Made by a program: the position numbers and the translations under genes | From: Culicoidibacter larvae | GTDB taxonomy: Bacteria > Bacillota_I > Bacilli_A > Culicoidibacterales > Culicoidibacteraceae | Length of the DNA: 64,000 nt | NCBI RefSeq assembly: GCF_005771635.1 | Contig: NZ_VBWP01000002.1 | Span: 1 to 64,000 of the forward strand | Direction: 5' to 3' | In this document: in pieces, positions 3,059 to 58,536 of the stretch | Numbering within the stretch: position 1 is the first letter of the stretch | How the letters are laid out: every line of letters starts with the position of its first letter | Notes under the pieces: model-generated | Databases searched by the model: none | What the model was told of the DNA's origin: nothing | The model's input: the letters and a program-made list of their open reading frames with translations, nothing else

Positions 3059-6000
3059 TCAAAACAAAGAGATTTGATTTTGGTCTTCTAAATCATCAAG
3101 AACACCCATTAATTCAAGTTTTGCAATCAATGTTCGAGAAATTTTAACACGTCCGGCAAAGTCCTCCTTAGACAAGAACGGAGCATCCTTTCTGGCCTCA
3201 ACAATTGACTGAGCAACACTATCACCTAAACTGTCAACACTACGGAACGGGAACAATAAAGTTTTATCATCAAGCACTCTAAAATCGGTGCTATGTGATT
3301 CATACAAATCAACTTGCTTAAATGATAGTCCTCGTTCTAACATTTCTAAGGCAACTTCCAACACTGTCTGCAAATTTTTCTCTTTAGTAGTTGCTTTAAT
3401 TCCATTAGCCTCTATTTCACTTATCCGAGCGCGGATTGCTTCACTACCGCGAAGCATTGTTTCAATTTCAAAGTCATCTGAACGAATTGAAAAATATGTC
3501 GCATAAAAATAAATCGGATGATAAACTTTAAAATAAGCAATTCTCACTGCCATTAAAACATAGGCAGTAGCATGGGCTTTAGGGAACATATATTTAATCT
3601 TTTTACATGAGTCAATATACCATTCAGGAACATTGTTCTCACGCATATCAGCTTCCCAATCATCATTAAGCCCCTTACCTTTACGAACTGATTCCATAAT
3701 AGTAAATGCTTCTGAATCATTAAGTCCTTGATATATCAGATAAACCATAATGTCATCCCGACAACCGATAACATCTTTTAATACACAGGTTCCATTTCGA
3801 ATAAGTGCTTGTGCATTATTCAGCCATACATCAGTACCATGAGATAAACCAGAAATCTGAACAAGCTCTGAAAAAGTTGATGGCAAAGTATCTTCAAGCA
3901 TCTGCCGTACGAATTTAGTACCGAACTCCGGCACTCCCAGTGTTCCAACTTTTGAATTAATTTGCTCTGGTCTAACACCTAAAGCACTTGTGTCTTGAAA
4001 CAATGAATATACCTTAGGGTCATCAGTTGGAATTGTTTTTGGATCAATTCCGCTTAAATCTTGAAGCATACGAATAATCGTAGGATCATCGTGTCCAAGA
4101 ATATCTAATTTCAACAAATTATCATGAATAGCATGGAAATCAAAGTGGGTTGTTTTCCATGCTGACTTTTGATCATCAGCCGGATACTGAACCGCAGTAA
4201 TATCGTAAACTTCCATATAATCAGGAACAACAATAATACCACCTGGATGTTGTCCAGTAGTTCGTTTAACGCCAGTACAACCTAGAACTAAACGGTCAAT
4301 TTCTGCGCCTTTCAAGTTCATTTCCTTATCAGACTCATATCCACGAACATATCCAAATGCAGTCTTTTCAGCAACTGTACCAATAGTTCCTGCACGATAT
4401 ACATACTCTTCGCCAAATATCTCTTTAGTATAATTATGAGCCTTGGCTTGGTAGTCTCCCGAGAAGTTTAAATCTATATCCGGAACCTTATCTCCTTTAA
4501 ATCCTAAGAAAGTTTCAAAGGGGATATCATGGCCATCTTTAATCATTGCAGTCTGGCATTCTGGGCAGAGCTTATCGGGTAAGTCATATCCACAACCAAC
4601 CTCGCCACCATGGAATTCACTATATAAACATTCTGGACAACGATAATGTGGGGCTAAAGGGTTTACCTCTGTAATTTCCATCATTGTTGCCACCAATGAA
4701 GAACCAACTGACCCACGTGAACCAACTAGATAACCATCATCAAGTGACTTTTTAACAAGCTTATGGGATATTAAATAAATAACTGAAAATCCATGACCTA
4801 TAATACTATTGAGTTCTTTTTCAATTCTTTCTTCAACAATACTTGGTAATTTTTCACCATATAAGCTATGTGCCATTTCGTAAGTCATAGAACGCACATT
4901 TTCTTCTGCATTTTCCATTCTTGGGGTGAATAGCTCATTTTTTATAACCTCAATTGGTTCAACTTGATCTGCAACAACTTTTGGATTGGTCACGACCAAG
5001 TCAAAAGCTTCCTGAGCTCCAAGAAATTCAAAATCTCTCAACATCTCATCAGTAGTTCTAAAGTGCATCGTTGGAATCTTTTTAATTTCACGATGAGCTA
5101 ATGGATGGACTCCGGCTTGTGACTCAACATATATTTCGCGAAAAATAACATCGTCGCGCTTTAAATGATGTACATCACCACTTGCAACAACTGTTTTCCC
5201 TAATTCTTGAGCATAACCAATAATTTGCTTTATGATTTCATAAATAGTTTCATGTTTCGGTACCCAGCCAATATCAGTAAGATGAGCGTAGCACTCAGGG
5301 GGTTGAACCTCAATATAATCATATGATTGCATAATTTCTAAAATTTCTTCTTTATTTTTATTTAATACTGCATCAAATACATTATTGTGAATACAAGAAC
5401 TACCTAGCAATAAATGTGTCCGATATTCTTCTAAAATCTCAACTGGAATTCGTGGTTCTCTAACATAGTACTCAGTATGCGCCATTGAGACTAGCTTAAA
5501 TAAGTCGTGTAAACCATCACGGTTTTTTGCGATTGCTGTCACATGGTATGAACGACTTATCTCCTGATTACGTTCTTTAGATGCAACCTTATTAATCTCA
5601 TTGGCAATTTTAATATCTCTGTCAGATAAAGCGTTTAACATATATAGAAATATCTCGCTAGTTGCCTCAGCATCATAAACTGCTCTATGGTGCGAGGTTA
5701 ATTCAACATTAAATTTCTTTGCTAATGCTTTTAAACCATGCCGTTTAATTTCAGGATATAAGTGACGTGACAACTGCAACGTATCCAGCCAATCATTTTT
5801 CAATTCGCCAATTCCAAGATTTTCATACGCTAAACGAATGAATCCAACATCAAAAGGGGCATTATGAGCAACAAGGACACTCTCTTCCCCACACCATTCC
5901 TTAAACTCTTTTAAAACCTCTGGAATATCTCTAGCTGTATCAACATTTTCTTGGGTAATATGTGTTAAATCCATAGTTTTTACATCTAACTTTTGTTTAG

Positions 6001-35726: not shown

Positions 35727-35919
35727 CAAACACCTGTCATAATATTATAAAACGCCCGCAATCTATGAAAATTGGCAAAAATTGCTCAATCACGTATGTT
35801 TAGATACGCTCAATCACAATTTTTGCCAATTCTCTACGATTTCAAGCGTTTTCCGACATAAATATCCATTTATTAGTCCCTTGCGGGAAACATTATGAAA
35901 CTCTTATTATAGGTGTTTG
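35727..35919 (-). other. Nested inverted-repeat element in the rpsB-tsf spacer (copy A)
   Basis: Four nested pairs: CAAACACCT (35727-35735) with AGGTGTTTG (35911-35919); AAAACGC (35749-35755) with GCGTTTT (35846-35852); a perfect 15-bp pair AATTGGCAAAAATTG (35770-35784) with 35817-35831; and CGTAT (35793-35797) with ATACG (35804-35808). A small TCCC-GCAA-GGGA hairpin lies near 35880. The central core CACGTAT-GTTTAGATACGCTC recurs at 58459-58478. Confidence 0.7.
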
Positions 35920-56724: not shown

Positions 56725-58182
56725 TTACTCAACTTTTCTTTTTGATGCAATTATAGCAGTAACCAGAGCAGCTGCAACTAATACTGAACCTACAAGCAAG
56801 TATTCATAGACTGTTTGACCTGTTTGCGGTAATTCAGTATTGCCACCTCCATTACCATTGGAATTATTCTCACTGCTGTTTTCGTCCGGGCCTGTTACAA
56901 AGGAACCAATTTCAAAATAGGTTGTATATAGTACCGGATCCAAGCGACCACCTGTGCCATTGGCAACTAAAGTGTATACTCCTGATTGCGTTAAATCAGC
57001 ACCATCAATAATTAATTGTCCATCTTGCAGTGTAGGCATAACATTTATTTCTATTCCATCAGGCTGAGTCAGAATATAAGAAAATGTCATTCCATAATCA
57101 ACAAATTGATTATACGCAGGATATGCAGCAAAACTATAATCGGTTTCTAAAGGACCAACCGAAGTTAGATTCAAAGCACTTGTTTGATTAGAAAATCGAA
57201 CAAGTGTAGGAGTTGAAGCATTTCTCGCCACTATATAGTCATACACTTCTTTTGGCAGCGAAGTTAACTTATTGTTATATAAAGGCATATTCCATAGTGT
57301 TTTAGATTGTGCGATTCCGCTCGAAACACTGGTTAATTCATTGTTATCCAATAGTAACTGGAATAATCTAGGCATAGTGCCAATACTTGCTGGCACTTCA
57401 CCATTGAAACGATTACCTGACATACCAATAGTCACGGCATTAGACCACTCACTAATCCAATCAGGAATTGGTCCGCTTAACTGGTTCCAAGAAACCAAAA
57501 ATGTGGATATTTTTGCTAAATTTCTTAATTCGTCAGGCAATTCACCAGTCAACTTATTTGAAGATAAATCTAAGTTAGTAAGACTGTTAAGATTGCCAAT
57601 CTCGGCTGGTATTGCACCAGTAAGCTGATTAGTGTTTAAATCAAGAAGCTCCAGTTTTTTTAAATTGCCAATATTAGTTGGAATTGAACCTGTGAACTTA
57701 TTTTTGGCCAATCTAAGGTCAATCACCGTTGTTAGATTTCCAATTTCTGTTGGAATAACACCGGATAAACCGTTGTTAGATAACGAAAGTTTTTCAATGC
57801 TTAACATATTGCCAATTTCAGCAGGGATTTCGCCAGTCAATTTATTTCCATATAGATCTATCGTTGATATATTGATAAAGTTTTCAATTCCATTAAGTGT
57901 CCCGGCAATATTTTTTTCTCGCAAAATTATTTCCCCGGTTGCTGCCTGAGCTTCATCAACGCTAATAAATCCATCACCATCTAAATCAAATTCTGGATAC
58001 AGTAATAAAATCGCATCATGCAATTCCACACTACCAGACCCAAATGCCCAATCTACCGGTGCTTCAACCGGATTACTAGTCGCCTGAACCGTTATTGGAC
58101 TGTTTGTATTTACAAGAATATTTGCAAAAATGAAGGTAGATACAAATAATATGGCCCCTACAGCATTCTTGATTTTCATCAT
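56725..58182 (-). CDS. Sortase-anchored surface protein with plant-type leucine-rich repeats
   Basis: A 485-residue exported protein. Residues 1-34 are a signal peptide (AVGAILFVSTFIFANILV, then TVQA). DLDGDGFISVDE (about 66-77) is an EF-hand or dockerin-like calcium loop. About 90-330 holds roughly nine leucine-rich repeats of the plant-specific class, with unit L-x-G-x-IP-x-x-IGNL (LTGEIPAEIGN, LSGVIPTEIGNL, FTGSIPTNIGNL). An Ig-like segment follows. LPQTG at 451-455, a membrane helix and KRK form the wall anchor. Tandem ATG codons at 58182/58179 follow AGGGGGG. It is probably an adhesin or substrate-binding surface protein. Confidence 0.9.
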   Translation of the reverse strand: MMKIKNAVGAILFVSTFIFANILVNTNSPITVQATSNPVEAPVDWAFGSGSVELHDAILLLYPEFDLDGDGFISVDEAQAATGEIILREKNIAGTLNGIENFINISTIDLYGNKLTGEIPAEIGNMLSIEKLSLSNNGLSGVIPTEIGNLTTVIDLRLAKNKFTGSIPTNIGNLKKLELLDLNTNQLTGAIPAEIGNLNSLTNLDLSSNKLTGELPDELRNLAKISTFLVSWNQLSGPIPDWISEWSNAVTIGMSGNRFNGEVPASIGTMPRLFQLLLDNNELTSVSSGIAQSKTLWNMPLYNNKLTSLPKEVYDYIVARNASTPTLVRFSNQTSALNLTSVGPLETDYSFAAYPAYNQFVDYGMTFSYILTQPDGIEINVMPTLQDGQLIIDGADLTQSGVYTLVANGTGGRLDPVLYTTYFEIGSFVTGPDENSSENNSNGNGGGNTELPQTGQTVYEYLLVGSVLVAAALVTAIIASKRKVE

Positions 58183-58361
58183 AATTATTCCCCCCTGTTT
58201 ATTTAATGAAAAATATACCAACTTATAATAGCATAGCTTTACCAGTTTTAATGATTTTCTTATAAAAAAACATTTTTCACTTTTCAATCACACTACTATG
58301 TATTTTTCTTTTGACGGAATAATCCAACAGAGCTACTCAAAAACACCAATAAAACAAATAA

Positions 58362-58400: not shown

Positions 58401-58536
58401 TGATTGCCAAGCACATATATTGGCGAATTTTGAATGATTCTGCTCCGTGTCTCATGGTCACGTATTTTAGATACGCTCCCACTCGATACTCACAGAATAA
58501 TCCAAACTTCACTCAATCTATGCGCTTGGTTGATTC
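58401..58536. repeat. Nested inverted-repeat element, copy B
   Basis: Outer arms TGATTGCCAAGC (58401-58412) and GCTTGGTTGATTC pair imperfectly; middle arms GATTCTG / CAGAATAATC flank the core CACGTATTTTAGATACGCTC at 58459-58478. That core matches 35791-35811 except for one base. Both copies have the core at the tip of long nested stems. Confidence 0.6.

Follow-up and report, generated by a model that had tools for sequence, protein, structure and literature searches.

A hairpin in the rpsB-tsf spacer of Culicoidibacter larvae and a second copy on the same contig belong to a family of dispersed, probably mobile palindromes with ERIC-like architecture

RESULTS

Two long hairpins on one strand of the window

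The window, a 64,000-nucleotide stretch of contig NZ_VBWP01000002.1 of Culicoidibacter larvae (genome G000), carries two long palindromes: copy A, between rpsB and tsf, and copy B, which adjoins an open reading frame at 56725-58287 (Table 1). The product of this frame is leucine-rich-repeat-like and closes with LPQTG, then a hydrophobic stretch and a basic tail, a pattern seen in sortase-anchored surface proteins. A first-pass annotation of the window had placed a shared core at the tip of long stems in both palindromes, and the sequence confirms the core at both positions. The long stems also stood, but the strand had to be corrected, as folding is better on the minus strand of the window (GAGCGTAT..ATACGTGA), which for copy A is also the sense strand of rpsB-tsf. 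On this strand, tandem G.A pairs take the place of the loops flanking the tip, and arm mismatches are of the G.U rather than the A.C kind. Many copies have an extra GA/GA two positions outward, so that two base pairs are bracketed by tandem G.A pairs. No inverted repeat found in the window within 200 nt is longer than copy A, whose 36-nt arms are 81% complementary and which folds (locus L034) at −68.7 kcal/mol.

Table 1. Positions of the two hairpins and their parts in the window
Feature	Position	Strand	Content	Evidence
Copy A, whole palindromic region	35727..35919	-	rpsB-tsf spacer; outermost pairs AAACACCT/AGGTGTTT	Inverted repeat, ORFs, fold
Copy A, main stem	35749..35852	-	36-nt arms, 35749-35784 and 35817-35852	Covariation over 28 copies
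Copy A, apical core	35791..35811	-	GAG-CGTAT-loop-ATACG-TGA on the minus strand; inner tandem G.A pair	
Copy B, whole hairpin	58401..58536	-	More divergent subtype, other arms	Model R1 match
Copy B, apical core	58459..58478	-		Sequence; model R3

Covariance models locate both copies. The general model R3, built from one copy per genome from 34 genomes (with G000 represented by a sister copy that is neither window copy), finds exactly two sites in the whole window, namely, copy A (35776-35825, minus strand; 51.5 bits; E = 2.5e-13) and copy B (58446-58490, minus strand; 31.1 bits; E = 5.5e-7). Model R1, built from 28 G000 copies, matches copy B at 58425-58510 with an E-value of 0.0155, as expected of a divergent member; its sister copies lie at G000:C2:211017 and C2:178554. 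The E-values of all models built here are rough by the tool's own statement. Rfam gave no match in the window and none above the gathering cutoff for the element in seven loci.

Some 40 copies in G000 covary, with the constraint on one strand

The 2.5-Mb genome of G000 contains 11 occurrences of the 13-mer TTTAGATACGCTC and none of its reversed control. With up to three mismatches, the 21-mer occurs 30 times, against once for the control. Model R1 has 66 matches at an E-value of ≤1, many of which are the two strands of one palindrome, and merging the strands leaves 40 distinct places, i.e., about 40 copies. For the alignment (A1), we used 28 of the 29 listed copies, leaving out one divergent copy (L033, plus strand). 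In these 28 copies, 91.7% of the cells are paired, compared with 79.8% after shuffling and 33 to 48% after sliding. Changes on both sides were found at 21 of the 31 stem pairs, amounting to 105 two-sided cells versus 28 in the shuffles. The first-pass annotation had proposed such a genome-wide core search and covariance model and had named a lack of further copies and of covariation as evidence against it; both copies and covariation are present. Its reading of differing yet pairing arms as a sign of conserved structure is likewise upheld by covariation, within G000 and across genomes (see below).

Arm mismatches in G000 are biased by strand. Read on the folded strand, G.U exceeds A.C by 77 to 19 over all arms and by 55 to 4 in the aligned subset, and G.A exceeds C.U by 56 to 17. 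The direction is the same in G302 (23:11 and 32:3, respectively), G306 (16:7 and 22:5) and G296 (7:5 and 12:4). As the loops and mismatches are asymmetric between the strands, the strand under constraint is the folded (minus) strand. The constraint acts on this strand either as RNA or as single-stranded DNA.

Some G000 copies (L036, L037, L041, L045, L053 and L055) contain an extra GC-rich hairpin module inside the lower stem, with the sequence CACCCCAAGGGTACTTCC..GGGCGC or CAAGGTACTAGCGC..GCGCGTCGG.

The same hairpin with other arms in several phyla

No exact copy of the 21-mer was found outside G000. A pattern covering only the tip, GAGCGTATNNNNNNATACGTGAYYGA (equivalent to 19 bases), matched 31 stretches, several of them within one genome; by our own estimate, about 2 would be expected by chance. 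For nearly all of these stretches, the fold is the same long hairpin, built from unrelated arms, and the named hosts include Clostridia, Chloroflexi and Cyanobacteria MAGs. Two stretches, L080 and L084, have no palindrome, were judged to be chance matches and were left out of the model. Model R2 has matches in 21 of the 22 genomes reached by the tip pattern, with up to 28 in one genome; the 22 still include the genomes of L084 (G313, with one R2 match) and L080 (with none). Among sampled genomes, each count including the starting genome, R2 matched 1/296 in the class of the window (G000 only), 2/289 in that of G298, 11/391 in that of G306 and 12/274 in that of G296, the last two being upper figures because several near-limit single matches show no clear hairpin (e.g., L241, L242 and L245 in the class of G306 and L379 in that of G296).

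The architecture that emerges on the folded strand is fixed at the apex, GA-NN-GAG-(5-bp stem)-loop-(5-bp stem)-UGA-NN-GA with tandem G.A pairs. Below it are a helix of ∼17 to 22 nt, an internal loop bearing AGG and then outer arms that differ yet remain complementary. Copy A has GTAGAG where AGG is expected. In an alignment with one copy from each of 34 genomes (A3; 34 of 37 representatives, with G1049, G1074 and G493 dropped as doubtful and the place of G297 corrected by hand), 72.7% of the cells are paired, compared with 59.3% when shuffled and at most 43.8% when slid. Three pairs of the tip stem have two-sided changes in 3, 5 and 5 sequences and no one-sided change, with two broken cells at one pair. 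The inner tandem G.A pair is present in 33 of the 34 genomes and the outer one in 23, and a purine-GG (RGG) triplet lies 17 to 22 nt 5′ of the tip in 25 of the 37 representatives. Conservation of the tip is partly ascertainment, because many rows were found via the tip pattern. To judge from the models and predicted folds, the same hairpin with other arms is present in bacteria of several phyla and is multicopy in some of their genomes.

The 18-base core is present in eight viral contigs, where it lies in one phage reading frame without the hairpin, and a longer pattern matched no stretch in viral sequences. Family members had no match in plasmids or in E. coli, whose ERIC copies are too diverged for that search. 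L070 holds three near-identical tandem 350-bp units (3821-4578), one hairpin each, ending against a coding region, and in Clostridiaceae bacterium M8S5 (L088 and L078), hairpin clusters directly adjoin rRNA operons.

The family shares the tip and loop of ERIC

The tip of the family matches that of ERIC, an enterobacterial repeat on record since 1990-91. A 45-base ERIC core is present in 5375 of 5426 E. coli genomes, and in one such copy (L440; core GGAGCTTACATAAGTAAGTGACTGG), the apical stem is flanked by GAG and UGA, with tandem G.A pairs. Model R3, whose 34 genomes include no E. coli, matches the E. coli ERIC core with 22.3 bits (E = 1.8e-5 in 3587 bases). The earlier, narrower R2 scored it weakly (7.5 bits; E = 0.12), and by BLAST, ERIC and the window copies have little sequence similarity. 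In an alignment of seven rows, consisting of ERIC and six family members (with G000 represented by sister copy L094, which has AGG), the invariant positions are AGG, GAG, TA, TA, TGA and one C. The copies in G1024 have the ends TATACTC..GAGTATA, are 126 bp long and fold like ERIC; these are also the ends printed for the Salmonella RU-1 repeat in PMC2759123.

ERIC/IRU/RU-1 (126 to 127 bp) and the family are alike in forming a single long hairpin, in being intergenic and multicopy, in the GAG-stem-UGA tip, in the AGG loop at a similar distance below the tip and in their comparable length. The first-pass annotation knew of no named family that fits, a statement that no longer holds, since ERIC/IRU/RU-1 agrees in both tip and AGG loop and is of comparable length. 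The window copies nevertheless differ from ERIC in several respects: they have other arms and ends, with no TATAC..GTATA ends at 126 to 127 bp and no visible TA or 8-bp duplication, and their tip stem is CGUAU rather than CUUAC. The extra outer tandem G.A pair (23/34 genomes) is also a feature of the family unlike ERIC. In the literature, ERIC is described from Enterobacteriaceae and Vibrionaceae (PMC10969869, PMC2267715); it is non-autonomous and mobile (PMC2229807, PMC10969869, PMC2267715) and, when transcribed in Yersinia, can alter the stability of the neighbouring mRNA (PMC2229807). The host of the window lies outside the two families named in PMC10969869. We found no report of ERIC in Bacillota, Chloroflexi or Cyanobacteria in a search that mostly did not extend to subscription papers and is therefore not proof. 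The family is ERIC-like in architecture but is set apart from ERIC by its ends, length and host. The two probably descend from a common ancestor, albeit without proof.

Other repeat systems offer partial parallels. Integron attC sites are recognised as a folded single strand, their arms vary while pairing is kept, and their orientation relative to replication matters; compared by description only, they are conserved at the base boxes and not at the tip, unlike the hairpin family. YPAL/RU-2, Correia/NEMIS, bcr1, BOX and RUP are small mobile palindromes in spacers, and here too, the likeness is one of description only. Two papers list these as stem-loop repeat families (PMC2229807, PMC2267715). 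REPs, according to PMC3116915 and PMC3733652, measure 20 to 40 bp and have a GTAG or CGTC tag that stays unpaired at their base; the same sources describe REP/REPIN elements as palindromic and intergenic, with compensatory changes and proposed single-strand folding, as in our family. The family differs from REP/REPIN elements and their RAYT transposases in being conserved at the tip, and no Y1_Tnp gene was found in G000.

Relatives carry the marks of transposition

In relatives, elements with the same hairpin have been dispersed by transposition. In the gammaproteobacteria G1072, G1199 and G1047, the hairpin is a 140- to 142-bp element with inverted ends GTAACTACTCAGCG, and 17 of 24 copies are flanked by 8-bp direct target duplications (3 of the 24 lack one flank). 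In register, the 8-mers on the two flanks have an identity of 0.86, compared with 0.29 to 0.42 when shifted out of register. We take the combination of GTAA and an 8-bp duplication in the elements of G1072 and G1199 to resemble IS66. In G1024, all nine intact-ended copies, which are of ERIC length, measure 122 bp between TA and TA. In G298 and G301, relatives with ∼90% identity, orthologous spacers differ by whole hairpin units, and a clean 130-bp unit present in L228 is absent from its orthologous spacer, L215. The occurrence of two kinds of ends and duplications (TA and 8 bp) among the relatives suggests that the hairpin has been moved by several different transposases, at least two.

Several spacers of G298 and G301 (L063, L066 and L210-L235) are arrays of several same-direction hairpin units with a short conserved tag between them (on the folded strand, CTCTGGCAC). 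The 20-base inverted end GTAACNNYTCAGCGTRTTYA has more than 70 matches per genome in G1072 and G1199 (L390-L419), nearly all of them paired 140 bp apart; among the matches listed, no pair is spaced widely enough for a transposase.

In G000 itself, no common target duplication was seen: a 7-of-8 direct repeat flanks 17 of 39 copies, compared with 31% for swapped flanks, and there is no peak at the outer ends and no TA end signal. G302, G306, G296 and G298 likewise show no common duplication. Target-site duplications, a check put forward in the first-pass annotation, are found in gammaproteobacterial relatives (17/24) and not in G000, and we infer the mobility of the G000 copies from their relatives. 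Comparison of neighbouring open reading frames over genomes identified no transposase near the copies, the shared neighbours being housekeeping genes only. Among 16 genomes, a reverse transcriptase (RVT_1) is present in 7 (absent from G000 and G302) and a Y1 transposase (Y1_Tnp) in 10 (absent from G000, G298, G302, G306, G308 and G312).

Genomic place and orientation of the copies

Copies in G000 lie in spacers, and at 30 places, both neighbouring genes run opposite to the folded strand in 16 cases, both run along it in 7, and directions are mixed in 7. For genes directed toward the hairpin, the stop codon and the tip are 43 to 58 nt apart in 21 of 26 copies (G000 and four other genomes; three further loci gave no open reading frame by script). 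Only a few loci contain tRNA genes.

Orientation relative to replication was derived from match positions and skew in G302 and G309, both complete genomes. All 15 places in G302 (L264-L278, L284-L303) have the folded strand on the lagging, C-rich strand, as do 10 of 11 loci in G309 (L304-L323), the exception being a weak match at 82 kb. Genes near the G302 copies have no such orientation bias (8/15). Local skew agrees with the hairpin orientation in G296 (9/9) and G298 (16/16). G000 is split 18:12 (n = 30; P = 0.36), with both window copies among the 12. In G306, the count is 4 of 10, with opposite copies 1 kb apart, and in G1072 and G1199, it is 13:7.

DISCUSSION

We consider it probable (roughly three chances in four) that both window sites are dispersed, non-autonomous MITE copies of an ERIC-like superfamily that reaches far outside the Gammaproteobacteria. 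Of the three readings in the first-pass annotation (a mobile miniature element, a protein-binding or chromosome-organising repeat and a family of structured RNAs), the mobile miniature element is the best supported, by way of the target duplications, TA ends and unit presence or absence in relatives. A transposase acting in trans would have placed copies into intergenic DNA, often beside stop codons. Selection would keep the folding of one strand, with the single strand as the form that moves or with a transcribed hairpin that must stay closed. By analogy with ERIC in Yersinia, a transcribed copy might also change the stability of the neighbouring mRNA, and copy A would be included in the rpsB-tsf transcript.

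Several features of the family would also be expected of functional structured RNAs, or of 3′-end mRNA elements, that selection maintains site by site and that are not primarily mobile. Nearly every copy retains its pairing, close copy pairs in G000 often differ on both sides (both/[single + both], ∼0.55 at all identities), G.U is favoured over A.C on one strand, and the stop codon tends to lie at a set distance from the tip (43 to 58 nt; 21/26 copies). We nonetheless regard this explanation as improbable, as the copy number and patchy distribution (G000 alone among 296 genomes of its class), as well as the target duplications and unit presence or absence in relatives, fit a mobile element, genes in G000 run in mixed orientation relative to the hairpin, and no Rfam family matches. 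The frequent two-sided changes between similar copies could instead arise if complementary arms were copied from each other by quasi-palindrome correction or snap-back synthesis, with no selection on folding, and the outer arms of G302, which are nearly unique to each copy, agree with that. Such copying is very unlikely to be the explanation: correction would erase mismatched loops, yet the tandem G.A pairs and the AGG loop are found from phylum to phylum, and the mismatches are biased by strand.

KOPS and Chi are repeats that are read on one strand, and the one-sided placement in G302 (15/15) and G309 (10/11), always on the C-rich strand, together with the agreement of local skew in G296 (9/9) and G298 (16/16), might indicate a repeat that organises replication or the chromosome in a similar way. 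There is little chance of this, given the split in G000 (18:12; P = 0.36) with both window copies in the minority, the mixed orientation in G306 (4/10, with opposite copies 1 kb apart) and in G1072 and G1199 (13:7) and the patchy presence of the family. Chance palindromes or ordinary terminators, to which the terminator-like flanks abutting some copies could point, are refuted by the 30 occurrences against 1 in the reversed control and by covariation beyond that of shuffles. As arms can extend past a stop codon, the outer arms could also be inverted copies of the neighbouring gene; how far they reach varies, however (−44 to +68 nt), and the simpler explanation is that they are terminal inverted repeats.

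A broader form of the mobile-element reading is possible, and we put it forward tentatively, as more doubtful than the reading itself. ERIC may be the enterobacterial branch of a very old cross-phyla hairpin superfamily in which the tandem-G.A tip and the AGG loop are kept for recognition of the folded strand by a widely conserved cell factor. The ends, and hence the transposase (TA in one genome and 8 bp in others), would have been exchanged, and some genomes would retain copies almost only in one replication orientation. If the family does span phyla, the conserved tip and loop point to what is important for movement or function, something beyond the reach of studies confined to one genus, and together they provide a search model for the transposase. 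G1072, G1199 and G1024 carry fresh copies, so movement could be caught there. The strict replication orientation in G302 and G309 is a separate and testable puzzle.
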